63,123 nucleotides of DNA, from contig VGXO01000011.1 in the NCBI GenBank assembly GCA_016873275.1, forward strand, positions 1 through 63,123, read 5' to 3'. This document shows, in pieces, positions 37,996-50,825 of the stretch (its first letter is position 1; each line of letters begins with the position of its first letter). The translations under genes were made by a program, and so were the position numbers. Source of the DNA: Phycisphaerae bacterium. Its GTDB lineage: Bacteria > Planctomycetota > Phycisphaerae > Phycisphaerales > SM1A02. The notes below the pieces were generated by a model. That model was not told where the DNA came from. It ran no database searches and worked only from the letters and a program-made list of their open reading frames with translations.

Positions 37996-39171
37996 CTACG
38001 GGACCGTGGTGAGCCCCCGAGCCATGGCGAGGTATGCGTCGACCTGCGCCCGCACCTCCGCGAGCGAGTCGCCTCCGAACTTCGCGCGGAACGCCCGCGC
38101 GACCTCGAAGGCGACCACGTTCTCGAGGACCACGCTCGCCGCGGCGGCGGCGCAGACGTCCGATCGCTCGTAGGCGGAGGTCTGGGGCTCGCCGGTCGCG
38201 AGGTCCACGCTGGGCATGCCGCGCAGCAGCGTGCTGATCGGCTTCATCGCCGCGGTGATCACGATCGGCATGCCGTTGGTCATGCCGCCCTCGAGACCTC
38301 CCGCGTGGTTGGTCTGGCGCTCGAATCCGAGCGAGGAGGTCGCTCGCCGCGCCGGATCAAGGCGGATCGCGTCGTGGACCTCCGAGCCGCGGTGCCTCGC
38401 GACCTCCGCGCCCATCCCGATCTCCACGCTCTTGATCGCCTGCACCCCCAACACCGCCGCGCCGATCCGCGCGTCGAGCCGCTCGAGCCCCGCGCCGCAG
38501 GCGCCGAGCCCCGGCGGCGCGCCGAAGACGTGCACCTCGATCAGACCGCCGACGGTGTCCTTCGCCTCCTTCGCCTCGCGGATCCGCGAGGCGAGCCGTT
38601 CGCTCGCCTCGGGATCCGGCACTCCGACCTCGCTCGCGTCGCGGATCGCCCGCAGGTCGCGCCAGTTCTCGGGGGTCGGTCGCGCGCTCGTGAAGACGTC
38701 GATCGCGCCCCGGACGAAGCCGAACGCCTCGATCCCGAACTCGCGGAGGAGGCACCTCGCCGCGGCGCCGCCCGCGGTGCGCGCCGCGGTCTCGCGGGCG
38801 CTCGAGCGCTCGATCACGTCGCGGCAGTCGGTCGAGAGGAACTTGAGGCTGCCCGCGAGGTCGGCGTGACCCGGCCTCGGGCGGGTCACCGGCGGCGTCC
38901 TGACGGGGTCGTCGAGGCGGCGGTCCTGGTTCCGGACCGCGATCGCGAGCGGACCCGCCGTGATCCGCCCCTGCCGCACGCCCGCCAGCACCTCCGCCGC
39001 GTCCTCCTCGATCCGCTGCCGCGCGCCTCGTCCGTAGCCGCGCTGGCGGCGCCGCAGCTCCGCGTTCACGAAGTCGAGGTCGAAGGGCATGCCGAGCGGA
39101 AGGCCCTCGACGAGGCAGACCATCGCGGGTCCGTGCGACTCACCGGCGGTTCGGAGCTCGAGGGCGGTCAT
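37996..39171 (-). CDS. aroC: Chorismate synthase AroC
   Basis: AroC converts 5-enolpyruvylshikimate 3-phosphate to chorismate using reduced FMN, the last step of the shikimate pathway. The 391 residues carry all three signatures: 'RTAGESHGPAM', 'RQRGYGRGARQRIEEDAAEVLAG' context with 'GRGARQRIE', and C-terminal 'RSDVCAAAAASVVLENVVAF'. The active-site 'ARETAARTAGGAAAR' and 'GLEGGMTNGMPI' are present. ATG 39171 places RTAGESHG at residue 7, as expected; the open frame further upstream has no homology. Downstream, on the same strand, is the WYL regulator 31 bases away. Confidence 0.95.
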   Translation of the reverse strand: MTALELRTAGESHGPAMVCLVEGLPLGMPFDLDFVNAELRRRQRGYGRGARQRIEEDAAEVLAGVRQGRITAGPLAIAVRNQDRRLDDPVRTPPVTRPRPGHADLAGSLKFLSTDCRDVIERSSARETAARTAGGAAARCLLREFGIEAFGFVRGAIDVFTSARPTPENWRDLRAIRDASEVGVPDPEASERLASRIREAKEAKDTVGGLIEVHVFGAPPGLGACGAGLERLDARIGAAVLGVQAIKSVEIGMGAEVARHRGSEVHDAIRLDPARRATSSLGFERQTNHAGGLEGGMTNGMPIVITAAMKPISTLLRGMPSVDLATGEPQTSAYERSDVCAAAAASVVLENVVAFEVARAFRAKFGGDSLAEVRAQVDAYLAMARGLTTVP

Positions 39172-39324
39172 GGCGTGCGCGAGGGAGACCGGGTCGATCG
39201 TAGCGGGAAGCACGCCTCGTTCATCCGCGACGGGGTGACCTCCGCTCTCGCTCGGAGCAGGACGGCTCGTAGATTCGCCGCGTCGCGTCTCCCCAACTCC
39301 CCCCAACACCCAGGAGATCCTGTG

Positions 39325-39813
39325 ATGAACTCCCCCCGAACCCGCGTCCCGCTCCTCGTCGTCCTGCTCGCCTCCACCATGCTCGTCGCGATCCCCGCCG
39401 CGGGGATCGTCGTGCCGGGTCTCGCCTCGTCGAACGAGGTCGACGCGAAGTCGCTCGGGGTGGACCTCGAGCGCTCGATGTGGAAGGCGATCGCCGACCA
39501 CGACATGAGGACCGTCGAGTCGATGCTTGCCTCCGGATTCCTCTCGGTGCACGAGAACGGCGCCCGGGACCGCGCGAAGGAGCTCGACCTGATCTCGAAG
39601 CTCAAGCTCGGACCCTACGAGCGCTCCGACTTCGTGGTGACCCGCGAGGGACCGACCATGGTGGTCTGCTACTTTGTCGAGGTGGCGGAGACGATCGACG
39701 GCGATCGCCTGCCCAAGCGCCGCTCGGCGCGGTCGAGCGTCTGGCTCATGACCCCCCAGGGCTGGCAGTGGATCCATCACGCGAACCTGAACCCGCTCCC
39801 GCCGAAGGCCTAG
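39325..39813 (+). CDS. Exported NTF2-like (DUF4440-type) protein
   Basis: The 162-residue protein starts at ATG 39325 after an AGGAG site. A signal peptide (about 8-28, 'PLLVVLLASTMLVAIPAAG') precedes a cone-shaped NTF2-like domain: 'LERSMWKAIADHDMRTVESMLASGF', 'KLGPYERSDFVVTREGPTMVVCYFVE', ending 'SVWLMTPQGWQWIHHANLNP'. The family binds small ligands or acts as a steroid-isomerase-like enzyme; no catalytic residues can be named. It ends 29 bases before eboE and could share its transcript. Confidence 0.8.
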   Translation: MNSPRTRVPLLVVLLASTMLVAIPAAGIVVPGLASSNEVDAKSLGVDLERSMWKAIADHDMRTVESMLASGFLSVHENGARDRAKELDLISKLKLGPYERSDFVVTREGPTMVVCYFVEVAETIDGDRLPKRRSARSSVWLMTPQGWQWIHHANLNPLPPKA

Positions 39814-39842
39814 GTCCCGGCGGCGGATCGCCGATCCGCTCG

Positions 39843-40976
39843 CTGCGACTCGGCTACTGCACGAACGTCCACCCCGGTCCTGGACTCGCGAGGATCCTCG
39901 AGGGGGTGGTGGCGATGGCGCCCTTGGTGGCGTCGTCGCTTCGTCGTGGCGGGAGCTCCGTGCTGCCCCGCGACGCGCCGCTCCCGCTCGGTCTCTGGCT
40001 CTCCGACGAGGCGTCGCGCGATCTCGATCGTCCCGGCGAGGCGGAGCGCCTGCGCGACCGCCTCGCCGGACTCGGGCTCGTGGTGGCTGGACTCAACGGA
40101 TTTCCCTTCGGCGACTTCCACGGACGCGTCGTGAAGCACGCCGTCTACGAGCCCTCGTGGGCGGATCCCGCGCGGCTCGAGTTCACCGCGCGGCTCGCCC
40201 GCGTCCTCGCGCGGCTCGTTCCGTCCGGCACGAGGTCCGCCGGCGTCACGACGCTTCCGGTCGGCTGGCGGGCGGCGGTCTCCGATGGCGGATCGATCGA
40301 CGCCGCGCGGCGGGCGCTCGCCGTCGCGATCGAGGCGATGCGTCGCGCCTCCGACGACTCCGGCATCGAGATCCACCTCGACCTCGAGCCGGAGCCCGGC
40401 TGCCTGCTCGAGCGGGCGGAGGAGACCGCGGAGTTCCTCGCGGGGGTGCACGATCTCGCCGGGCAGGCGGCGCGGAGCCATCTTCGCGCGTGCCACGACG
40501 TCTGCCATGCGTCGGTGATGTTCGAGCCGCAGGACGACTCGCTCGAGGCGTACCGGCGCCGTGGCGTGCTGGTCGGTCGGGTGCAGGTCTCGAACGCGGT
40601 CGCGTTCGACGGGTCGGGCGGCGACTTCCGCGCCCTCCGCATCTTCGACGAGCCCCGCTGGCTGCACCAGACCACGGTCCTCGATGGCGCAGGCAAGGTG
40701 CACCTCTTCGACGACCTGCCCGAGGCGATCGAGCGGGCGCCCGAGGGCTTCTGGCGGATCCACTTCCACGTGCCGGTCTTCGCGGAGTCGCTCGGGAGGG
40801 TGCAGACCACGCGGGGTGACGTCGGGGAGTGCCTCGCCGCGCTTCGCGCGGAGGACGGCTGCGACTTCCTCGAGGTCGAGACCTACGCCTGGAGCGTGCT
40901 GCCCGCGGCGATGCGCCCGGGCTCCCTCGACGAGGGGATCGCGCGGGAGCTCCGCTACGTGCACGACCTGCTCTGA
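39843..40976 (+). CDS. eboE: EboE-like TIM-barrel metabolite-traffic protein
   Basis: EboE belongs to the ebo cluster that, in Nostoc punctiforme, is needed to move the scytonemin precursor to the periplasm; its chemistry is unsettled. The 377 residues follow a xylose-isomerase-like barrel: 'LRLGYCTNVHPG', 'LPLGLWLS', 'AGLNGFPFGDFHG', 'EIHLDLEPEPGC', 'HDVCHASVMFE', 'VGRVQVSNA', 'WRIHFHVPVF' and 'FLEVETYAW', with Glu, Asp and His well placed to bind a metal. Family members begin M-[KR]-L-G-Y-C-T-N, which points to a CTG start at 39843; no ATG or TTG is near, and the alternative is GTG 39768 inside the upstream gene. EboC and EboF homologues follow directly. Confidence 0.82.
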   Translation: MRLGYCTNVHPGPGLARILEGVVAMAPLVASSLRRGGSSVLPRDAPLPLGLWLSDEASRDLDRPGEAERLRDRLAGLGLVVAGLNGFPFGDFHGRVVKHAVYEPSWADPARLEFTARLARVLARLVPSGTRSAGVTTLPVGWRAAVSDGGSIDAARRALAVAIEAMRRASDDSGIEIHLDLEPEPGCLLERAEETAEFLAGVHDLAGQAARSHLRACHDVCHASVMFEPQDDSLEAYRRRGVLVGRVQVSNAVAFDGSGGDFRALRIFDEPRWLHQTTVLDGAGKVHLFDDLPEAIERAPEGFWRIHFHVPVFAESLGRVQTTRGDVGECLAALRAEDGCDFLEVETYAWSVLPAAMRPGSLDEGIARELRYVHDLL

Positions 40977-41039
40977 GGGCGCCGCGGTTGCGCGGCGGTC
41001 GATTCCTCGGCACCACCCCTTCGGCATTACCTTGCGGCG

Positions 41040-42092
41040 GTGCCGATCGACTCCCGACTCCGCGGATGGATCGAGCTCCTCCGCCTCCCGAACCTGCCGA
41101 CGGTCGCGAGCAATGCCCTGCTCGGCGCGTGGCTCGGCGCCGCGGCGGTCGGCGATGCGATCCGGGTTCCGGGGAGCCGCTGGCTTGGTTCGGCGCCGGA
41201 GGACCTCGCCCGGACGACCGTCGACGACGTGCTGCTCCTCGCCCGCGTGGCGGCGGGGATCTGCGGTCTCTACCTCGTCGGCTTGATCCTCAACGACGTG
41301 CTCGACCTCGAGACGGACCGCCGCGAGCGACCGGCTCGACCGCTGCCCTCCGGGCGGGTGCGGGTGCTGCATGCCGTGGCGGCGTCGGCGGCGCTTGGGC
41401 TCGGAAGCCTGTGGCTCCTCGGCGCTCTCGGAGGCTCGACCCAGGTCAGCCTCCTGTCGCTCCTCCTCTGCAGCGCGATCATCCTCTATGACCTGCTGCA
41501 CGCGAGGCTCCGTTGGTCCGTGGCGCTGCCGGGCGCATGCCGAGGTCTCGCGATCATCCTCGCCGCCGGCGCGGCGGCGGAGGGAGTGCGCGCGGCGGAG
41601 GAGCCCGTCGCGGCGTCCGACGCCCCTCCTTGGCTCGATCCGGTCGTCCTCGCCGCGGCGGGCGTGGTGGCGGTCTTCGTCGTCGCGGTGAGCATCGTCG
41701 CGAGGGGCGAGGTGCGGACCGAGGAGGGGCGACTCGCCCTCCGTCGCGACCTCGGCGCCGGTCCGCGCTGGGTGGTCGGTTGCGGTCTGCTCTGCCTCGT
41801 GCCGGCGGCGATGCTCGGGGCGATGATTCCCCGCCCGACGATCGAGGATCCCTTCGGCTCGATGCAGCTGCTGCGCGACCTCGCGGTCATTGGATGCCTG
41901 GCGGGCTGGTTCGTCGCGGCGACCCGCTGGACCGCGGAGACGCCGGTGCCGCGCCTCGTCGGCGGATGGCTGGGGAGCCTCTGCCTGATCGACGCGGTCG
42001 TGCTGGCGGCGCTTGGACCGACGCCGACGGTCGTCGCGATCGTCCTCTTCGCGGCGAGCCGCCTGCTTGGTCGCCGCCTCGCGGCGAGCTGA
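41040..42092 (+). CDS. eboC: EboC-like UbiA-family prenyltransferase
   Basis: The 350-residue integral membrane protein has about eight helices and the UbiA Asp-rich motif 'NDVLDLETDRRERPARPLPSG' shortened here to NDVLD and DRRERPARPLP, which binds prenyl diphosphate through magnesium. Downstream helices show 'IILYDLLHARLRW', the second Asp region. It should attach a prenyl or similar chain to an acceptor in the inner membrane; in ebo systems the acceptor is unknown. GTG 41040 is preceded by TACCTT ending 6 bases upstream, a leaderless-type promoter inside the cluster. Confidence 0.8.
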   Translation: MPIDSRLRGWIELLRLPNLPTVASNALLGAWLGAAAVGDAIRVPGSRWLGSAPEDLARTTVDDVLLLARVAAGICGLYLVGLILNDVLDLETDRRERPARPLPSGRVRVLHAVAASAALGLGSLWLLGALGGSTQVSLLSLLLCSAIILYDLLHARLRWSVALPGACRGLAIILAAGAAAEGVRAAEEPVAASDAPPWLDPVVLAAAGVVAVFVVAVSIVARGEVRTEEGRLALRRDLGAGPRWVVGCGLLCLVPAAMLGAMIPRPTIEDPFGSMQLLRDLAVIGCLAGWFVAATRWTAETPVPRLVGGWLGSLCLIDAVVLAALGPTPTVVAIVLFAASRLLGRRLAAS

Positions 42093-42123
42093 CGACGCCC
42101 ACGGGCGAAGGTCCCGCGTCACA

Positions 42124-43545
42124 ATGACCGGCGTGAGCTCCGCACCCGCGCCGCAGCCCGTCGCCGTCGTCGACCTCGTGGGCTTGTCGCGTCGCCTGCT
42201 TGCGGCGCATGCGCCGCGGCTTCGGCGCTTCGCCGAGCGGCACGGAGCGATCAGGACGACGACGCCGCCGCTGCCGGCGGTCACCTGCACGGTGCAGTCC
42301 TCGATGCTGACCGGCCTGCCTCCCTCCGCGCACGGCGCGGTCGCGAACGGCTGGTTCGACCGCGAGCTCGGCGAGGTCCTCATGTGGCGGCAGTCGAACC
42401 GCCTCGTCGCCGGCGAGAAGGTCTGGGAGACGGCGAGGCGGCTCGACCCGCGGGTGACCTGCGCGAACCTCTTCTGGTGGTACGCGATGGGCGGCACGCA
42501 CGACGTGTCGGTCACGCCGCGACCGATCTACGCGGCGGACGGACGCAAGATTCCCGACTGCTGGACGACGCCCGCCGACCTCCGCGACCACCTGCAGCGG
42601 GCGCTGGGACGGTTTCCCCTCTTCGACTTCTGGGGACCGCGCGCCGGCATCGCCTCGAGCCGCTGGATCGCCGACGCCGCCCGCGAGGTCTGGCGTCGGC
42701 ACCATCCGACGATCTCCCTCGTCTACCTGCCGCACCTCGACTACGACCTGCAGCGGTTCGGACCAGAGGATCCGCGGGTCGCGCGGGCGGTCGCGGCGAT
42801 CGACGAGGTCGCGGGCGATCTCCTCGACTTCTACGAGCATGAGGGGGTTCGGCCGATCGTCCTATCCGAGTACGGGATCGTGCCGGTCCGCGGACCGGTG
42901 GCGATCAACCGCGAGCTCCGCCGCGCGGGGCTTCTCAAGGTGCGCGCGGAGGAGCATGAGCGCGAGGCGCTCGACCTTCTCGGCAGCGATGCGTTCGCGG
43001 TGGTCGATCACCAGGTCGCCCACGTCTACCTTGCGCCTGCGGCGAGAGCTCGCGTCGGAGAGGTCCATGACCTGCTTCGCGCCCTTGATGGGGTCGAGAC
43101 GGTGCTCGTCGGTGAGGCGATCGCCGCGGCGGGACTCGCGCATGCCCGAAGCGGCGACCTCGTCGCGGTCGCGGCGCCAGACCGCTGGGTCGAGTGGGGG
43201 CACTGGCTCGAGGACTCGCGGGCACCCGACTTCGCCCGGTGCGTCGAGATCTTTCGCAAGACCGGCTTCGATCCCTGCGAGCTTCTCGTCGATCCTCGCA
43301 TCGCGTTCCCGCGGCTCGCGGTGGCGTGGCGCCTGCTGCGGCGGACCCTCGGTCAGCGGGTGCTGATGGACCTGATCCCGCTCGATGGCTCGCTCGTGGG
43401 CGGCTCCCATGGACGGATCGACGTCCCGGAGATCGACCGACCGGTCCTTCTTGGGGCGGTTCCATCGGCGACCCCGGAGGTCATCCCGGCGACCGCCGTG
43501 CGGGACCTCGTGCTGGAGTCGGTGCTCGGTCGGCGGGTCGAATGA
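42124..43545 (+). CDS. eboF: EboF-like alkaline phosphatase-superfamily (nucleotide pyrophosphatase-type) protein
   Basis: The 473-residue protein belongs to the type I phosphodiesterase/nucleotide pyrophosphatase group. Metal ligands and nucleophile region can be followed: Asp in 'VAVVDLVGL', Thr/Ser in 'VTCTVQSSMLTGLPPSAHG', 'VYLPHLDYDLQRFG', 'VLSEYGIVPV' and a His in 'GGSHGRI'. Conserved ebo wording includes 'ANGWFDRELGEVLMWRQSN', 'CANLFWWYAM' and 'SVTPRPIY'. It would cleave a phosphoester or diphosphate, perhaps releasing the product of EboC. ATG 42124 is used, but GTG 42133 lies 7 bases after a CACAAT hexamer and may be the true, leaderless start. Confidence 0.82.
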   Translation: MTGVSSAPAPQPVAVVDLVGLSRRLLAAHAPRLRRFAERHGAIRTTTPPLPAVTCTVQSSMLTGLPPSAHGAVANGWFDRELGEVLMWRQSNRLVAGEKVWETARRLDPRVTCANLFWWYAMGGTHDVSVTPRPIYAADGRKIPDCWTTPADLRDHLQRALGRFPLFDFWGPRAGIASSRWIADAAREVWRRHHPTISLVYLPHLDYDLQRFGPEDPRVARAVAAIDEVAGDLLDFYEHEGVRPIVLSEYGIVPVRGPVAINRELRRAGLLKVRAEEHEREALDLLGSDAFAVVDHQVAHVYLAPAARARVGEVHDLLRALDGVETVLVGEAIAAAGLAHARSGDLVAVAAPDRWVEWGHWLEDSRAPDFARCVEIFRKTGFDPCELLVDPRIAFPRLAVAWRLLRRTLGQRVLMDLIPLDGSLVGGSHGRIDVPEIDRPVLLGAVPSATPEVIPATAVRDLVLESVLGRRVE

Positions 43546-43632
43546 GCCGCGAACGACGCGTCGTGGGTTGATCCGTCGAGCGAGGGGTCCACAATCAAGT
43601 CTTCCTCCGCGGGCTTCCTCCGCGAACTGCGC

Positions 43633-44670
43633 ATGCTCCGAATCGGACCCGTCACGCTCGAGACGCCGCTCCTCCTCGCCCCCATGGCGGGCTATTGCGA
43701 CGTCGCGTTCCGGGTCCTGTGTCGGGAGCAGGGCGGGGTCGGGCTCGCGAGCACGGACCTCCTGAACTGCCATGCCGTTCTCCGGGAGACCCCCGCGTCG
43801 CTCGAGCTCGCCGCGACCGACTCCCGCGATCAGCCGCTCGCGATGCAGCTCTACGGCAACGACCAGGATCCGCTTCCCGAGGCGGCGTGCTGGGCGATCG
43901 ACCGGGGCGCGCGGATCATCGACATCAACATGGGGTGCCCGGTCGACAAGGTCGCCAAGAAGAACGGCGGCTCGCTTCTGCTTCGGAACCCCTGCTCGAC
44001 CGTGAGGCTCGCCGAACGGATCGTGAAGGCGGTCGATCGGCACGCCGCAGGTCGGGTGCCGGTCACCGCCAAGATGCGGCTGGGTTGGGATGACGACTGC
44101 ATCGTGGCGCCGGCGCTCGCCCGCGACCTTGAGTCAGCGGGCATCGCCGCGGTCACGGTGCACGCCCGCACCACCAAGCAACTCTTCAGCGGGACGGCGA
44201 GGTGGGAGCGGATCGGGGAGGTCGTGGCGGCGGTGCGGGCGATTCCGGTGATCGGAAACGGCGACGTCACCGAGCCAGAGCACGTCCCGGCGCTCATGCG
44301 GATCTCCGGCTGTGCCGGCGTCATGGTGGGCAGGGGGGCGCTTCGGACGCCGTGGCTGTTCCGGCGGGCGTGGAAGTGGCTGTGCGACGGAGCAGTCGGA
44401 CCAGAGCCCTCCCTCGCCGAGAAGATTCGAGTAATCGGACGTCACCTCGAACTGGCGGTGGAGCTTCTTGGAGAGGATCGGGCCGTCCGCAGCCTGCGGC
44501 AACGCATCTCGTGGTATGGCAAGACGATGGGGCATGTGAAGCCCTTCAAGGAGGCGGTCCGCACCGCCCAGACCTCGACGGAGATGGCTCACGCCGTGGA
44601 GCAGGCGCTTGAGCACTGCGATCGAGGGCGGGCGTGGAGGCGGTTTCCGGACGAGTCAATGACCGCGTGA
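43633..44670 (+). CDS. tRNA-dihydrouridine synthase (Dus family, DusB-like)
   Basis: The 345-residue FMN enzyme reduces uridines in tRNA to dihydrouridine. It has '[20 protein letters not shown]', '[10 protein letters not shown]', catalytic Cys102 in [10 protein letters not shown], '[11 protein letters not shown]', '[14 protein letters not shown]', 'VIGNGDV' and '[15 protein letters not shown]', closest to DusB. A promoter-like pair TTGATC and CACAAT precedes it at about 43568-43595. It is 87 bases downstream of eboF and probably transcribed separately. Confidence 0.93.
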
Positions 44671-44746
44671 GGCAGCCCCTCGCCCCCGGCGTTCTGGGCG
44701 GGGGTGCGGGTCGCGGGCAGTTTCGCCCAGAATCGCAGGAAACCGC

Positions 44747-44774
44747 TTGTGACCCTCGGAACCGGTGATATGTT
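44747..44774 (+). promoter_or_regulatory. Promoter of the VPAPGA gene at 44873
   Basis: TTGTGA (44747-44752) and TATGTT (44769-44774) are separated by 16 bases. A leader of about 90 bases would follow, beginning near the GGAAAAGGGCG block at 44783. The layout matches the promoter at 45825. Confidence 0.6.
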
Positions 44775-44782
44775 CCGAGGTG

Positions 44783-44872
44783 GGAAAAGGGCGGCGCCAC
44801 GGCACCGCCGAGAGTTACACCTTCGGTCTCAGGACTCAGGGAGGTCCGAGGACTGTTGGAGGAGGAAGGGTA
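44783..44872 (+). promoter_or_regulatory. Structured 5' leader shared with the next gene
   Basis: The predicted leader opens with GGAAAAGGGCG (44783-44793), then a GGCGG/CCGCC hairpin, a weaker GAGA/TCTC pairing, and ends in a GGAGGAGGAAGG ribosome site. The same opening 11 bases start the leader at 45859. It could be a riboswitch-like or mRNA-stability element; no known class was recognised. Confidence 0.45.
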
Positions 44873-45607
44873 ATGGCTGCCGCACATCGACTTTCTTGCG
44901 CTTCCGCGGTGCTTTCCGGCGTGATCGCGTTCTCCGCGTCCGCGGACACCAACACGATCCCGAACGTCCAGGTCAACGTGACCGTGGGGGGGCAGTTGTT
45001 CCAGTACGACCCCAGCACGATGAATGCGTGGGGGAATCCGAACGGCACGTTCGGTTTCTTCGGGCACGCGACGGCGACCAACATCGCCGAATCCGGTCAC
45101 CAGGTCGGCTGGGACCTTCTGGTCAACCCTGATCCGTTCATCATCGCGAACCTCGTCTACACGAACACCAGCGGCTCGACGCAGGTCGTCGGCGTCGAGG
45201 TGGTGCTTCCCATCGGCATGTCGATGCCTTCGACGCTGATTGGCGGCTCGGTGAGCGGTTCGGTCACCGACGGCAACGGAAACGGCGCGACCTTCGCGTC
45301 GTTCGCGGGTGGCTCCGTCTATAGCGCGATCGTGGACGGTTCCTCGACCGCCGCGACGCTTCTGACCGGGTTCAGCGTCTCGACCGGCAACTACGGCTCG
45401 GCGCTGATCGGTCCGGCGAGCTTCGGCACGCCGATCCCCAGCCAGCCCTACGGTGCGATCAACACCTCGATGGCGATCCGCTACGAGTTCACGCTGTCCG
45501 CGGGCGACTCGGTCTCGCTCGCGGGCTCGTTCGTGGCGGTTCCGGCTCCAGGAGCGGTCGCGCTCCTCGGGCTCGCGGGACTCGTCGCTCGCCGACGCCG
45601 CCGCTGA
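44873..45607 (+). CDS. Exported VPAPGA-type C-terminal sorting protein
   Basis: The 244-residue protein starts at ATG 44873 after a very strong GGAGGAGGAAGG site, implying high expression. A signal peptide (about 5-25, 'ASAVLSGVIAFSASAD') precedes a beta-rich domain with 'GGQLFQYDPSTMNAWG', 'NLVYTNTSGSTQVVGVEVVLP', 'LIGGSVSGSVTDGNG' and 'PIPSQPYGAINTSMAIRYEF'. The tail is 'VPAPGAVALLGLAGL' plus arginines. The mature chain is nearly free of Lys and Cys and rich in Gly, Ser, Thr and Asn, as in secreted structural proteins. It is followed by a strong terminator. Confidence 0.85.
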   Translation: MAAAHRLSCASAVLSGVIAFSASADTNTIPNVQVNVTVGGQLFQYDPSTMNAWGNPNGTFGFFGHATATNIAESGHQVGWDLLVNPDPFIIANLVYTNTSGSTQVVGVEVVLPIGMSMPSTLIGGSVSGSVTDGNGNGATFASFAGGSVYSAIVDGSSTAATLLTGFSVSTGNYGSALIGPASFGTPIPSQPYGAINTSMAIRYEFTLSAGDSVSLAGSFVAVPAPGAVALLGLAGLVARRRRR

Positions 45608-45924: not shown

Positions 45925-46653
45925 ATGAGATCTGAGTTGTTTTCGAGGGCGATGGTTGGTCTCGGCGTTGCCGCGACCTTGGCAGTGTCGACGTTGGCTT
46001 CGGCTGACGGTCCCGCGGTCACCTTGAACATCAACGGCGGCAGCAGCACGTTGAGCGGCACCGCGACCGCTGCGGCGAACATCTACAACTACAGCGGCTC
46101 GCTGTCGGACGCTGGTGGTCTGTGGTCGTTCGGCTACGACTTCAACGCGTCCAACATGGCCGACCTCCAGACGTCGTTCGTCAGCGGCAACTTCGTCCTG
46201 ATCAACGCGGGAGGCGCCGCGCGGGACTTCTCGATCACCCTGACGCTGCCTGTTCTCGTCTCTGGCGCGAAGAACACCCTCTACGGTGGCTCGGTCGCCG
46301 GTTCGATCATCGGCGATGCGGATGGCGGATCGTTCTCGACGATCGGCTCGACGCCGGTGTGGGCTGCCTCGACCAACGGGGCGTCCATCGCGAACCTGCT
46401 GACTGCGCCGGTCGCCGTGACCGCGAATCCGTTCCAGGCGGCGAGCGTCGGCTCCGCGAGCTTCGGCGAGCCGATCCCGAGCGCCAGCGGTCCGAACCTC
46501 TCGACGAACCTTGCGATCACCTTCACCTTCCGGCTTGGTGCCGGGGACTCCGCCGCGTTCACGAGCGTGCTCGTGGCGCAGGTGCCCGCCCCCGGTGCAG
46601 TCGCCCTCCTCGGCGTCGCGGGTCTCGTCGCCCGCCGTCGTCGTCGCGACTGA
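45925..46653 (+). CDS. Exported VPAPGA-type C-terminal sorting protein
   Basis: The 242-residue protein has a signal peptide (about 7-28, 'VGLGVAATLAVSTLASAD'), then 'NIYNYSGSLSDAGGLWSFGYDF', 'FVLINAGGAARDFSITLTLP', 'LYGGSVAGSIIGDADG', 'GEPIPSASGPNLSTNLAITFTF' and the tail 'VPAPGAVALLGVAGL' with arginines and a final Asp. Segment order and spacing match the protein at 44873, so the two are tandem paralogues with similar promoters and leaders. A ligand or matrix role is inference. A strong terminator follows. Confidence 0.85.
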   Translation: MRSELFSRAMVGLGVAATLAVSTLASADGPAVTLNINGGSSTLSGTATAAANIYNYSGSLSDAGGLWSFGYDFNASNMADLQTSFVSGNFVLINAGGAARDFSITLTLPVLVSGAKNTLYGGSVAGSIIGDADGGSFSTIGSTPVWAASTNGASIANLLTAPVAVTANPFQAASVGSASFGEPIPSASGPNLSTNLAITFTFRLGAGDSAAFTSVLVAQVPAPGAVALLGVAGLVARRRRRD

Positions 46654-46808: not shown

Positions 46809-47576
46809 TCAGATCGACTCGACTGCCGGATCGGAGGCAGTCGGCGGCTCCTCGGAACGCTTCCGGGAGGTGGACTCGCTCGGTGACTCGCCGAACTCCC
46901 GACGCTGCGGCAGGTCGGAGAGGCTCGCGAGCCCGAAGATCGAGAGGAACTCCTTGGTCGTGCCGTAGAGCATCGGTCGCCCGAGTTCCTCGGCGCGACC
47001 CACGATGCGCACGAGTCGTCGGTCGAGCAGTCCCCGCAGCACCTCGCCGCATGCGACGCCGCGGATCGCCTCGATCTGAGCGCGGACGATCGGTTGCCGG
47101 TACGCGATGATCGCCAGCGTCTCGAGCGCCGCCGGCGTGAGCTTCGCCTGGTTGCGTTGCCCCTTGAGCCGCTCGAGCACGTCCGCGTGGCGCGGCTGAA
47201 TCAGCACCCGCCAGCCGCCCGCGACGCGGCGGATCCGGAAGACCCGACCAGTTCGCTCGAAGTCGGCGTTGAGCCGATCGACCGCCACCTCGATGACGCT
47301 CGCCGGAGCGGGCTGCTCCGGGAGCTCGAGCACCGCCGCGATGCGGGCATCGGGAATCGGTCGGTCCGACGCGAGCAGCACCGCTTCGATCGACTCGACG
47401 ACCTCCGCGGATGGATCCGGCGCGGGCGCCGGCACGGTCCGCCCACGTCGGGAGCGTCCCGCCTTCGACGGCTGGTTCTCCGTCGCGTCTGGAGTCGAGG
47501 GCGCTTCAGGCAGGGCGGTCGCGGCGTCGGTCACGGGTCGGGGTCCTCCATCCTTGGAGCCGCGAGTCTTGCTCAT
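46809..47576 (-). CDS. scpB: Segregation and condensation protein ScpB
   Basis: ScpB joins ScpA and SMC in the chromosome-condensing complex. The 255-residue protein has a 55-residue basic/Pro N-terminal extension, then two winged helices: 'EVVESIEAVLLASDRPIPDARIAAVL', 'RVFRIRRVAGGWRVLIQPRHADVLERL' context and the signature 'LTPAALETLAIIAYRQPIVRAQIEAIRGV', with 'GRPMLYGTTKEFLSIFGL'. Length and motifs are standard apart from the charged ends. It is the last gene of the minus-strand block and no scpA is adjacent. Confidence 0.93.
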   Translation of the reverse strand: MSKTRGSKDGGPRPVTDAATALPEAPSTPDATENQPSKAGRSRRGRTVPAPAPDPSAEVVESIEAVLLASDRPIPDARIAAVLELPEQPAPASVIEVAVDRLNADFERTGRVFRIRRVAGGWRVLIQPRHADVLERLKGQRNQAKLTPAALETLAIIAYRQPIVRAQIEAIRGVACGEVLRGLLDRRLVRIVGRAEELGRPMLYGTTKEFLSIFGLASLSDLPQRREFGESPSESTSRKRSEEPPTASDPAVESI

Positions 47577-47697
47577 CCGCGCTGCCTACGGAAGGCAGGC
47601 GATGCCACTTCCTTCAGTCCAACACCTGGAATCCAACACTTCGGCGATTCGATGCCGTGGTCGCGAGCGGAGTTCGTGGATGCCGCGACGCCCCGGT

Positions 47698-48129
47698 TCA
47701 CCGCGCGTTCCGACCGCGGGCGACCGAGCGGCGGACCATCGCGAGCCGCTGCCGCTTCGCGATCTCCTCGATCGCCTCCGGACCGCGGGGGCGTCCATCC
47801 TGCGAGCGGGCGAGGTCGGCGTTCGCCGCGGCGAGCTCCCGCTCCGCGTCGGCGGCGTCGATCGACTCCGCCGGCTCGGCGACCTCGGTGAGCAGCGTCA
47901 AGGTGTCCTGGTCCATCTGGGCGAAGCCATCGCTGAGCACGAACTCACGGCGACCGCCCGAGCCCATCTCCAGCCGAAGCCGACCGGCGCCGAGCGAGAC
48001 CAACATCGCGGCGCGGGACGACATCACGCCCATCTGACCGTCCCAGGCGGGAAGGTCCACGTAGGTCACGTCGCCGTCGAACATCTCGGCGGTCGGGGTC
48101 ACGATCTGGCATCGGAAGGTCTTCGCCAC
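47698..48129 (-). CDS. atpC: F-type ATP synthase epsilon subunit
   Basis: The epsilon subunit sits in the rotor stalk and restrains ATP hydrolysis. The 143 residues show the N-terminal beta sandwich 'FRCQIVTPTAEMFDGDVTYVDLPAWDGQMGVMSSRAAMLV' pattern (cut here as VTPTAEMF and GQMGVM), 'REFVLSDGFAQM' and a two-helix C-terminal domain 'AERELAAANADLARSQ'. It is separated from all other ATP synthase genes: its upstream neighbour is a CYTH protein and its downstream neighbour is scpB. Confidence 0.9.
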   Translation of the reverse strand: MAKTFRCQIVTPTAEMFDGDVTYVDLPAWDGQMGVMSSRAAMLVSLGAGRLRLEMGSGGRREFVLSDGFAQMDQDTLTLLTEVAEPAESIDAADAERELAAANADLARSQDGRPRGPEAIEEIAKRQRLAMVRRSVARGRNAR

Positions 48130-48167
48130 CAGCGGCTCCGGGGATCAGCGGGCGGGCATCGTAGCGG

Positions 48168-48689
48168 TCACTCGACCGGCGGCAATCCGCCGCCGAAGGC
48201 GAGGGCGGAGTTGCGGTAGCGGGGGTCCTCGGTGACCTCGCGGACGATCCATGGCGACAGCCATGGCGGGGGAGCGACCGCCGCATCGAGGTGAGGGAGC
48301 TCGACCTCGGCGAGCACCAGCGGGAGGTCGAGGAAGCGGTCGATCTCCCAGAGGTACCCGTGCGAGCGGACTCGATGGCGGACCTTGCGCAGGCGCCGCT
48401 CTGCCGTCTCCCCCCAACGCCGCTCGAACTCCGCCTCCGGGATCTCCCGCTCCGACTCCTCCCGGACGAGACCCTCGCCCCGCTTCCGAGTGAGGAAGCA
48501 CCGCGTGCGTCCCGCCGAGCGGACCCGCCGCAGGCGTCCCTCGGTGGTCCAGCCGCCGTCGGCGGTCCGGGTCCTCGGCAAGTAGCCCTGCTCGATCTCC
48601 CAGACCTCCTCCGCCGGCGGAAGCGGCGGCATGCCGCGAAGAAGGAACACCCGCTCGATCTCGAGTCCCTGCGGGGCGTCGTCGGTCAC
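48168..48689 (-). CDS. CYTH-domain protein
   Basis: The 173-residue protein has the CYTH/triphosphate tunnel fold: ExExK-type opening 'GLEIERVFLL', 'IEQGYLP', 'RLRRVRSAGRTRCFLTRKRGEGLVREESE' as basic strands, 'YLWEIDRFLDLPLVLAEVELP' and 'WIVREVTEDPRYRNSALA'. Such enzymes hydrolyse triphosphate groups or act as adenylate cyclases; the short form is close to bacterial inorganic triphosphatases. Its GTG start overlaps the holB stop (GTGA), so translation is coupled. Confidence 0.85.
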   Translation of the reverse strand: MTDDAPQGLEIERVFLLRGMPPLPPAEEVWEIEQGYLPRTRTADGGWTTEGRLRRVRSAGRTRCFLTRKRGEGLVREESEREIPEAEFERRWGETAERRLRKVRHRVRSHGYLWEIDRFLDLPLVLAEVELPHLDAAVAPPPWLSPWIVREVTEDPRYRNSALAFGGGLPPVE

Positions 48690-49840
48690 GACGGGACCGC
48701 GGTCGATCCGCGCTCCTCCCACGCCGCCACGAGGTCCGCGAAGGCGTGCTGCAGGAAGACGTTCGCCTCGAGGTGCCGCTCCGCGAGGTCGAGGCGGTCG
48801 ATCCAGTCGACCATCCGGTCCGCCTCCTCGGCATCGCCTCGCTCCGCCGCCGCCGCGAGCCGCGCCCGCAGCCAGCGACCGAGCATGCCGAGGGCGAGCC
48901 TCGTCGCCTGGCGGTTCGCGGACTCCTTGCTCGCGCGGGCATCGCCCTTGACCCGCGCCTCCGCGAACTCCTTGACGAGCTCGGTCATCCGCTCGGCGAG
49001 GTCGAAGCCACCGCGACCGGCGAGGAGCGCCTCGAACGGCGGTCGCATCGCGCGATCCCACTCGATGAGCCCCGCCTCCAGCGCGAGCGCCGCGGCGCCC
49101 GGCGAACCCTCCGCGAACCCGAGGAGCCACGCCCGCATCTCGCCCTGCGGCACGGGATCGAGCCGGTCGAGCCAGCGCTGCATCGAGTCGGCGTCGAGCG
49201 GGAAGAACGCCACGTGGTGGCATCGGCTGCGGATCGTCGGCAGCAGCTTCGTGCGGTCCGCGCAGACGAGGATGATCCAGGTGTCCTTCGGCGGCTCCTC
49301 CAGCGTCTTCAAGAGCGCGTTCTGACCCGCCGAGTCGAGGAGCTCCGCCTCGTCGATCAGGAAGACCTTCCCGTGCCCGCGGTAGGGCGTCCGCAGCACC
49401 GGCGCGTCGAGTCGCGCCCCGCCGACCGTGCCGCCGATCATCAGCTCGCGGAGGAGGTCGATCGGGATGTTGGTCTGCTTCTTGTCGCGGAGCTCCGGGA
49501 TCTGCGAGTCCGCACAGCGGGTCCTCGAGATGAGGTGGAGGTCCGGATGCGATCCCGCGGCAAGGAGCTCGGCGGTCTCGCTCGTGGCGGGAGGCGTGAG
49601 TTCCCGCAGGTGCTCCTCGGTCGCCGCCGGATCGAGGAGGAGCGCGGCGAGCCGACGGGCGGTGGTCATCTTGCCCACCCCGGTCGGACCATGGAAGACC
49701 ATCGCGGGCGGCACGCGGCTGGCGACGAGGAGCGCCGCGAGGTCGGCTCGCGCGGCGGACTGCCCGAGCAGGGGCGCCGGCGGCATCGACCTCCTCGGCG
49801 TCGCCTCGACCTGCTCGACCTGTCGCCGTGACCTCGCCAT
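48686..49840 (-). CDS. holB: DNA polymerase III delta-prime-type clamp loader subunit
   Basis: The 384-residue AAA+ protein is part of the clamp loader that places the beta clamp on DNA. It has Walker A GPTGVGKMT (51-59), 'KVFLIDEAELLDSAGQNALLKTLEEP' with Walker B, and the SRC arginine-finger motif in 'LLPTIRSRCHHVAF'. The zinc-binding Cys cluster of many homologues is absent, and an insertion 'SETAELLAAGSHPDLHLI' precedes the sensor. ATG 49840 follows GGAGGCGA; the extension to 49951 is rejected. It lies 25 bases downstream of the SPOR-like lipoprotein gene. Confidence 0.88.
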   Translation of the reverse strand: MARSRRQVEQVEATPRRSMPPAPLLGQSAARADLAALLVASRVPPAMVFHGPTGVGKMTTARRLAALLLDPAATEEHLRELTPPATSETAELLAAGSHPDLHLISRTRCADSQIPELRDKKQTNIPIDLLRELMIGGTVGGARLDAPVLRTPYRGHGKVFLIDEAELLDSAGQNALLKTLEEPPKDTWIILVCADRTKLLPTIRSRCHHVAFFPLDADSMQRWLDRLDPVPQGEMRAWLLGFAEGSPGAAALALEAGLIEWDRAMRPPFEALLAGRGGFDLAERMTELVKEFAEARVKGDARASKESANRQATRLALGMLGRWLRARLAAAAERGDAEEADRMVDWIDRLDLAERHLEANVFLQHAFADLVAAWEERGSTAVPS

Positions 49841-49865
49841 CGACTCGCCTCCTCCACGCGGACGG

Positions 49866-50825
49866 TCAGTCGAGCGGGACCTCGACGAGGACGCAGGGCT
49901 TGGGACGCGCTTCTCCCGCGGGATTTCGCGGATCGACCGCCACGAGGACATCCTCGCCGTTGAGCCGCTGCGCCGGGAACGCCTTCATCAGGCGCTCGAC
50001 CTCCGGAGCGTACAGGGTGCTCCGCGGGTCGTAGGCATCCGCGCCGAAGCCTCCGATCGTGACGGTGCTCGTCTCGGTGTCAGGATCGTGGTGGAACCAT
50101 GCCTCGTAGCCCCGCGTCCGGAGCTCGGTGGCGTACCGCTCGGCGCTGCGCTTGACGTCCTCGGGGGTGATCTCGCGGGTGCCGAGGGTGCTCCAGACGG
50201 CGACCTGAAGCGTGTAGAGCTGCCGCTGGTTCGGATACCGCTGCCTGAGAACCCGCAGGTCGAAGGGCTTCGGCGGACCCGAGTCCACCGCCATGGTGCG
50301 GCGGACGAGCATGGCGGTCGCGAAGGGTCGCGATCCGCCGGACCCGGTGATCGCCTTCGCGAGCCCGAGCAGCTCCTGGGCGGACTCGTCCTCGGGCGAC
50401 GCGAACCGTCCGACCACCACCATCGACCCTGCCCGGCGGGGCTGGACGAACGCCTTGTCGAACACCCGGAATCGTCTCGCGACGTCCTCCCGGAACGCCT
50501 CGGCGCGGGCGAGGTGATCCTCGCCGGTGAAGGTCCCTAGGAGCACCGACCATCGACCACCGGACTCCGCGGCGACCGGCGGGCGGAAGCCGCTGCCGTC
50601 GTCCGCGACCACGTCGCCCTCGCCCAGAAGCTCGCTGCCCGCGCCGGCGTCCGCCGAGGTCCTGGATCGGCTGCCCGACCCCGTCCCGCAAGCGCTGAGG
50701 AGAAGGATGGCAGTCCCTGCGAGGGCGGTGCCGAGGGCGCGAAGGCGGCGGGCGCCCGGCGCGTCGATGCCGGCAGGATCCTGGGCGGAGGACGCGGTTC
50801 CGGGCTGGGGCGGCAGCGGGGACAA
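49866..50825 (-). CDS. Lipoprotein with SPOR-like domains
   Basis: I start this 319-residue protein at TTG 50825, which has GGAGC 5 bases upstream and puts the lipoprotein signal 'TALAGTAILLLSACG' near the N-terminus; longer readings have no such support. Two SPOR-like modules follow: 'RWSVLLGTFTGEDHLARAEAFRED' and 'LYTLQVAVWSTLG' through 'AERYATELRTRGYEAWFHHD'. SPOR domains bind denuded peptidoglycan, so a cell-division or wall role at the outer membrane is likely. It begins the minus-strand block that continues with holB. Confidence 0.78.
   Translation of the reverse strand: MSPLPPQPGTASSAQDPAGIDAPGARRLRALGTALAGTAILLLSACGTGSGSRSRTSADAGAGSELLGEGDVVADDGSGFRPPVAAESGGRWSVLLGTFTGEDHLARAEAFREDVARRFRVFDKAFVQPRRAGSMVVVGRFASPEDESAQELLGLAKAITGSGGSRPFATAMLVRRTMAVDSGPPKPFDLRVLRQRYPNQRQLYTLQVAVWSTLGTREITPEDVKRSAERYATELRTRGYEAWFHHDPDTETSTVTIGGFGADAYDPRSTLYAPEVERLMKAFPAQRLNGEDVLVAVDPRNPAGEARPKPCVLVEVPLD

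Follow-up and report, generated by a model that had tools for sequence, protein, structure and literature searches.

A G-type ebo gene set divided among three loci in a Phycisphaerae genus, with a prenylated cyclitol as candidate product

The stretch of DNA analysed here (the window) comprises 63,123 nucleotides of contig VGXO01000011.1 from a Phycisphaerae bacterium (GenBank assembly GCA_016873275.1; Phycisphaerales, SM1A02) and carries three genes of the ebo system, eboE, eboC and eboF, one after another on the forward strand. The genes for EboB and EboD and an EboG-type gene were identified on two other contigs of the same genome, which measures 3.23 Mb in 136 contigs and is listed as 100% complete and 1.14% contaminated, and EboA gave no match in it at E<=10. 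The ebo set of this organism is therefore complete and of the G type, with its genes scattered. Across the genus the set is split into three loci and apparently maintained. On balance, we favour a prenylated cyclitol, acting as a carrier or cofactor, as the compound that it makes.

Identification of the ebo genes

EboE (39843..40976, + strand), a xylose-isomerase-like TIM barrel and probable sugar or cyclitol isomerase or epimerase, matched NF035939 (TIM_EboE) at 361.3 bits (cut-off 250) over residues 3-373, the single match of this type in the whole genome. Its score against Pfam AP_endonuc_2 (26.4 bits) was below the cut-off of 31.1. No ATG, GTG or TTG stands immediately 5' of the conserved LGYC motif; the in-frame start candidates are CTG at 39843 or GTG at 39768, the latter located within the upstream gene. 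EboC (41040..42092, + strand, GTG start) is a putative UbiA-type membrane prenyltransferase that matched PF01040 at 55.1 bits (cut-off 34.2). Neighbouring UbiA genes in the clusters of relatives and Deinococcus fall into a single profile together with it, and the profile of the lineage matches Deinococcus EboC at 219 bits; because of this synteny and shared profile, the gene is read as EboC by position, with a diverged sequence. EboF (42124..43545, + strand, ATG start) matched PF01663 at 169.5 bits (cut-off 23), and its AlphaFold model has the NPP/alkaline-phosphatase fold with altered metal-ligand positions. The original prediction, made from the letters of the window, had named these three genes as members of the ebo system, and the matches bear it out.

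EboD was found on contig 1 (C1:39449-40645), with 430 bits against NF004852 (cut-off 333). The genome encodes two proteins of the 3-dehydroquinate synthase (DHQS) type, and the second, on contig 31, was set aside as a separate AroB by its best match (TIGR01357, 299.2 bits, just below the cut-off of 305). EboB was first detected as a weak TatD-type match on contig 4 (C4:62140-62955). Used as a query, this protein matched 86 of 121 genomes, all except the weakest at 49-92% identity, and it is located between D and E in the operons of relatives. A TatD match on contig 87 (211.7 bits) was also considered as EboB and was taken, by its score, as an ordinary TatD nuclease.

The open reading frame before eboB has 117 codons if begun at its last ATG and overlaps the start of eboB by 4 bases. 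Related frames precede EboB in 76 of 79 regions; the three without one include a region near a contig start (L251) and two without evident cause (L248, L257). Two Deinococcus ebo operons contain a small gene that this family matches (1.4e-29 and 6.2e-25 in a 20-sequence set), and Deinococcales carry eboG in place of eboA (PMC5133447). The frame would thus correspond to the eboG of that paper, an assignment resting on the place of the small gene in the Deinococcus operons. The original prediction had placed eboA, eboB and eboD outside the window, which is uncontradicted; a system confined to EboE, EboC and EboF in this genome is not what the two other contigs reveal.

Operon organisation in relatives and its break in the genus

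The comparison covered 120 automatically selected relatives, or 121 genomes with that of the window. For 80 of the relatives, one EboE region each was searched with profiles built from the matches, as were 20 further stretches; a number of the relatives' regions are cut by contig ends. Flanking genes were detected with single proteins at a score above 40 in 103 regions (81 with EboE), which undercounts neighbours, and gcvP, mgtE, trmH, galE, scpB, atpC and holB were named by eye.

The order D-B-E-C-F on one strand was observed in 53 of the 80 EboE regions, and the others were shorter or dispersed, partly through contig ends. Counting ebo genes alone, EboE is next to EboC in 75 of 80 regions, and the E-C-F trio is present in 64, some of the others being contig-cut. 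Conservation of the trio in relatives, chosen beforehand as a test of the original prediction, is thus evident.

All three genomes of the window's genus (G000, G001 and G002) have the operon interrupted at two junctions, D-G and B-E. The genes are not gathered in one operon: they lie on three contigs in G000, and the same breaks are found in G001 and G002. EboD stands apart, downstream of gcvP, mgtE and trmH and upstream of galE. EboG and EboB lie together at another locus, which in G000 and G001 is close to a sodium symporter, and in these two genomes E-C-F is positioned 5' of dusB. In G002, E-C and F are separate, each in the interior of a contig (L161, L245), with F again immediately 5' of dusB; a guanylate-kinase-like gene follows EboC and a different gene precedes F (names by eye). 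Since F is apart from E-C in this genome, the trio is not a fixed unit. Nine relatives have the intact D-B-E-C-F operon between mgtE on the D side and dusB on the F side, and in several of them (e.g. L200, L202, L217) scpB, atpC and holB follow beyond dusB. The simplest history consistent with these arrangements is that one operon was cut at the D-G and B-E junctions while its outer ends stayed where they were. Dispersed ebo sets are also counted in PMC5133447.

A DUF4440 gene and aroC before EboE were seen in this genus alone (3 of 103 regions). The DUF4440 gene is probably the one behind which E-C-F landed at the break-point. Its product, an exported NTF2-like protein, had been proposed as a ligand-binding partner of the ebo proteins; we rejected this proposal because the neighbour occurs in just those three regions, all of the window's genus, where the operon break would have placed EboE behind it.

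Distribution and closest known systems

EboE was matched in 84 and EboB in 86 of the 121 genomes. Tallied by hand from the match tables, 82 genomes have both, two have EboE only (55% and 66% complete), four have EboB only and 33 have neither; the EboE match in G092 is weak (21.6 bits). In the EboE tree, built by a quick method from 118 of 155 different sequences (relatives thinned) and with many open forks, the three genus sequences form a clade with support 100 among sequences of the window's family. This placement with Phycisphaerales and Planctomycetota agrees with the planctomycete-like origin that had been read from the window. Very short branches connect the EboE of L274, labelled Bacteroidia bacterium MAG12, with that of G055 from the window's family, so this contig is probably misbinned or mislabelled. 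Within family f5, G076, G080, G088 and G092 carry EboB, EboD and a distant EboF (41-44% identity) with no clear EboE, and G105 carries EboD and EboF. EboE is therefore not always kept, and these genomes possibly represent a further ebo variant.

Among 80 named genome loci around EboE, EboA was present in 22, EboG in 19, both in none and neither in 39; EboE was alone in 27. EboG goes mostly with the order D-G-B-E-C-F, in Phycisphaerales, a Hydrogenedentota metagenome-assembled genome, Isosphaera and others, with other orders in two loci. EboA goes mostly with A-B-C-D-E-F, in Bacteroidota and one cyanobacterium, with other orders in three. Pirellulaceae-type planctomycetes have mostly a lone EboE, in agreement with the three Planctomycetes species described without ebo clustering in PMC5133447; the Phycisphaerales operons indicate that the phylum does have the operon.

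The closest known system is the G-type operon on plasmids of Deinococcus (sp. QL22 and AB2017081), with six genes in the D-G-B-E-C-F order of the window's relatives. The Deinococcus operon is contiguous, whereas that of the window's genus is broken at two points, and EboE identity between the two is 37-38%. The A-type operon of Bacteroidota, cyanobacteria and eustigmatophyte plastids shares homologues of EboB, EboC, EboD, EboE and EboF with the window genome, but has EboA where the latter has EboG, and its order is mostly A-B-C-D-E-F. In Nostoc punctiforme, scytonemin genes lie beside an A-type ebo operon (PMC6282210). The actinobacterial SCO3242-type cluster (Streptomyces, Nonomuraea, Embleya) contains EboB, EboE and EboF homologues, a UbiA protein and an EboA-domain protein, with inositol-3-phosphate synthase replacing EboD. 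Annotated clusters of this type include an extra TIM-barrel isomerase/epimerase protein, and their UbiA protein is named SCO3242 family.

Conserved residues and predicted activities

In EboD, the Glu, His and His that we take to be the zinc ligands of DHQS are kept, and Asp occupies the position of what we take to be its substrate-binding Asn (N268) in 105 of 105 sequences. This replacement argues against EboD being a 3-dehydroquinate synthase; the NCBIfam title of NF004852, 3-dehydroquinate synthase, counts on the other side.

The EboE profile gave no sequence match among PDB chains at E<=0.01, and a fold search was therefore made. The structure models of the window proteins were built with 43 of 79 EboE and 33 of 44 EboF sequences, and the Foldseek figures for both proteins are a re-examination of one match list, not an independent search. 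The AlphaFold model of EboE (mean predicted local distance difference test score, pLDDT, 95.0) was closest to ketose 3-epimerases (Z 23.9 to 8yeb_A, root-mean-square deviation 2.9, 257 aligned). The fold is like that of L-ribulose, D-psicose and D-tagatose 3-epimerase, but EboE is about 90 residues longer, with 12-18% identity in the best rows. As many structure-match rows were tied, the likeness points to the kind of reaction at most. E182, E184, D219, H222, H307, H309, E344 and E346 are identical in 154 of 154 sequences, and position 248 is Q in 143 and H in 11. The invariant E, D and E residues could form a metal site as in the ketose 3-epimerases.

EboC retains the first Asp-rich motif N-D-x-x-D-x-x-x-D, with N in 94 of 94 sequences and the three D positions in 93, 94 and 94 of 94. 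Its nearest solved structure by sequence is digeranylgeranylglyceryl phosphate synthase (9e-22). In four loci (L160 4530-5609, L161 10547-11626, L163 10474-11496, L166 10637-11773), EboC contains an inserted zinc-ribbon-like CxxC...CPECG element; it sits just after the position of E224 in the window's EboC, which has no such insert.

EboF is 70-73% identical to its counterparts in the two other genus genomes and 48-61% identical to those of most relatives. Pyrophosphatase/phosphodiesterase genes annotated in the ebo clusters of Deinococcus and Streptomyces belong to the same family, and the EboF profile scores 618-680 bits against Deinococcus, Salipiger and Streptomyces EboF and 344 bits against that of Halobaculum. 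The AlphaFold model (mean pLDDT 94.1) aligned to Xac NPP (7n1s_B) with Z 30.4, a root-mean-square deviation of 2.8 and 338 aligned positions. We take the ligands of the two-metal NPP site to be D, D, H, D, H and H, with T as the nucleophile. In the alignment with Xac NPP, EboF preserves the Thr nucleophile, the final His and a single Asp. The other four positions are altered in all of the 107 different sequences: the first D is V in 97 and A in 10, one H is Q, and the D-H pair reads E-Y. Xac NPP itself displays the expected ligands in the same profile alignment; the NPP and DHQS residues were compared solely through printed profile alignments (Xac NPP; 6lk2). EboF thus shares its fold, Thr nucleophile and last His with Xac NPP, the ENPPs and phosphonoacetate hydrolase, and differs from them at these four presumed ligand positions. 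D295, H296 and H429 are invariant in 107 of 107 sequences and H204 is present in 106. The label of phosphodiesterase that the original prediction gave to EboF becomes doubtful because of the four changes; we predict either another mode of metal binding for EboF or a role other than NPP-type hydrolysis.

Inositol-3-phosphate synthase in place of EboD

Seventeen plasmid loci were picked for spread from 47 records with EboE and 52 with EboB. One of them (L263, with EboB and EboD) was judged in a separate analysis from the other 16, and the Halobaculum locus (L264) has no clear EboE. EboD was present in eight loci, inositol-3-phosphate synthase in eight, both in none and neither in one; as the loci were hand-picked, eight of 17 is not a frequency. 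The synthase-bearing loci belong to five Actinomycetota (Streptomyces, Nonomuraea, Embleya), one more Streptomyces, Gemmatirosa and Halobaculum. The locus with neither gene is a lone eboE in a Streptomyces polyketide-like cluster. The synthase accompanies EboG in Gemmatirosa and EboA in Streptomyces, which may point to more than one exchange event.

EboD and inositol-3-phosphate synthase are members of unrelated families whose common point is a cyclitol product. Replacement of one by the other in several clusters points to a cyclitol, and not EboD as such, as what the pathway requires. Literature searches under ebo names listed few papers dealing with this system. In a term search, the word "inositol" was absent from the main texts of PMC5133447 and PMC6282210, and "active site" and "catalytic residues" from that of PMC5133447.

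Other features were observed near ebo genes in these samples. An annotated ScyD/ScyE family protein (L262 817-2016) lies just 5' of a Streptomyces ebo cluster with inositol-3-phosphate synthase. A ferritin-like protein with a hypothetical protein beside it is found near the ebo genes of Mycetohabitans, Aureibacter and Gloeothece (L348, L353, L263).

Proposed pathway and alternative explanations

The prenyl-cyclitol idea for ebo was put forward in PMC5133447, and the carrier idea for the scytonemin monomer in Nostoc in PMC6282210. For the split set we infer the substrates, the order of the steps, the product and its use as follows. EboD would cyclise a sugar phosphate to a keto-cyclitol, which EboE would isomerise or epimerise; EboC would attach a polyprenyl chain at the membrane; the head group would be completed or handled by EboB and EboF, EboG being an accessory. 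Anchored by its lipid, the cyclitol would then be a carrier or cofactor in the transfer of a small molecule through the membrane, in the way suggested for the scytonemin monomer. Outside Nostoc, ebo export of any compound would be an analogy.

Several observations weigh against this pathway. To our knowledge, no ebo product is known. Inositol-3-phosphate synthase was found in none of the 80 named genome loci (EboD in 43) and only in the hand-picked plasmid loci, so its exchange for EboD is a minority state in our samples. The product of this synthase retains its phosphate. Sugar phosphate cyclases lose theirs (PMC5133447), and the two routes are therefore not simply equivalent. EboC of the window fails the NCBIfam EboC model (69.6 bits, cut-off 250) and is also under the cut-off of the SCO3242 prenyltransferase model (75.7 bits against 260). 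As the majority of the expected metal ligands are absent from EboF, a step of phosphate hydrolysis may be mistaken, and the genomes of family f5 with EboB, EboD and EboF have no clear EboE. Finally, a full ebo cluster is reported to lie in the Pseudomonas fluorescens EDB cluster (PMC6282210), to which indole products are credited (PMC9655573); these are as compatible with indole processing or export as with a carrier.

A prenylated secondary metabolite could instead be the end product itself, protective or antimicrobial, as was proposed for algal plastids (PMC5133447); we regard this as possible, at clearly lower probability than a carrier. Some ebo genes do lie inside or beside polyketide-type clusters: in Streptomyces sp. 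NBC_01244 the lone eboE (L351 6971-8149) is within an aromatic-polyketide-like cluster, a hint at associated metabolites, and in Streptomyces sp. AMCC400023 (L352) the ebo cluster adjoins similar genes. Nostoc ebo mutants, however, retain the scytonemin monomer in the cytoplasm, which points to translocation (PMC6282210), and in the neighbour clustering of the relatives' regions the commonest families are EboG and the flanking genes, although only some of the 41 families listed are annotated and tailoring genes may be among them.

A broader proposal, which we put forward tentatively, is that ebo generates lipid-anchored cyclitols with exchangeable head groups and that EboF is a repurposed NPP fold, not a two-metal phosphodiesterase. 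Either EboD or inositol-3-phosphate synthase would feed the same core of UbiA, TIM-barrel and EboF proteins. EboF would have a new active or binding site made of H204, D206, E249, Y250, D295, H296 and H429, with which it would act on the prenyl-cyclitol or present it. The window's genus would then be an example of a pathway that can be broken into three loci and yet kept.

Set beside the maintained carrier or cofactor pathway, decay of the split set, with E-C-F as remnants on the way to loss, appears improbable. EboC is divergent (25-53% identity to the 17 others compared) and EboE has no standard start codon at the usual place. Against this, the reading frames are intact, the active-site positions are kept, and EboD, EboB, EboE, EboC and EboF are retained in all three genus genomes. 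Within the genus, the divergence ratios of these five genes do not leave the range spanned by 19-23 other pairs (the comparison drew on 25 pairs from outside the genus, G075 and G083 each in two pairs, by ratios only and not dN/dS), and thus give no sign of decay.

A reduced system of EboE, EboC and EboF, independent of other ebo proteins and with its own metabolite, is rejected as very unlikely: the trio does stand together on one strand without the others in the window, but EboB, EboD and EboG were found in the window genome and in both other genus genomes, intact contig sequence separates F from E-C in G002, and in Nostoc deletion of eboA, eboB, eboC, eboE or eboF each gives a scytoneminless phenotype (PMC6282210). 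Chance clustering of unrelated sugar isomerase, UbiA and phosphodiesterase families can practically be dismissed, since EboE exceeds its equivalog cut-off and the same order recurs in 53 of 80 relative regions and two named Deinococcus operons, even though EboC falls below the EboC model cut-off and no EboF model is among the NCBIfam matches of the window's EboF.

Flanking genes

The DUF4440 gene (39325..39813, + strand) was recognised by PF14534 (45 bits on 39367-39810). A Shine-Dalgarno-like AGGAGA lies 5' of its ATG at 39325, and the hydrophobic N-terminus of the protein was judged by eye to be signal-peptide-like. Downstream of eboF, dusB (43633..44670, + strand; TIGR00737, 309 bits) is the usual neighbour of the ebo operon and was close to ebo genes in 20 of the 103 scanned regions. 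The scpB, atpC, CYTH and holB-like genes (46809..49951, - strand; named by eye) represent the usual downstream flank, the CYTH gene having no match in the regions of relatives. Between dusB and these genes, two adjoining related proteins (44765-45607 and 45925-46653) share the C-terminal sequence VPAPGAVALLG(L/V)AGLVARRRRR and fall into one cluster in the neighbour clustering; we presume that this tail resembles PEP-CTERM-type sorting signals. Homologues of the first protein lie close to dusB in some of the regions. A pattern scan of 39000-44800 gave no promoter-like site and one terminator-like site, about the number found in shuffled sequences, and an Rfam search returned a tRNA as its sole match.

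Implications

The new element for planctomycetes is a complete six-gene ebo set, usually in one operon, in an order of this phylum. The points on the exchange of EboD and on the residues of EboF, which contradict the standing annotation, concern the whole ebo family and are the more valuable outcome. As ebo genes are spread over many phyla and algal plastids, these results make the chemistry of the system more testable.

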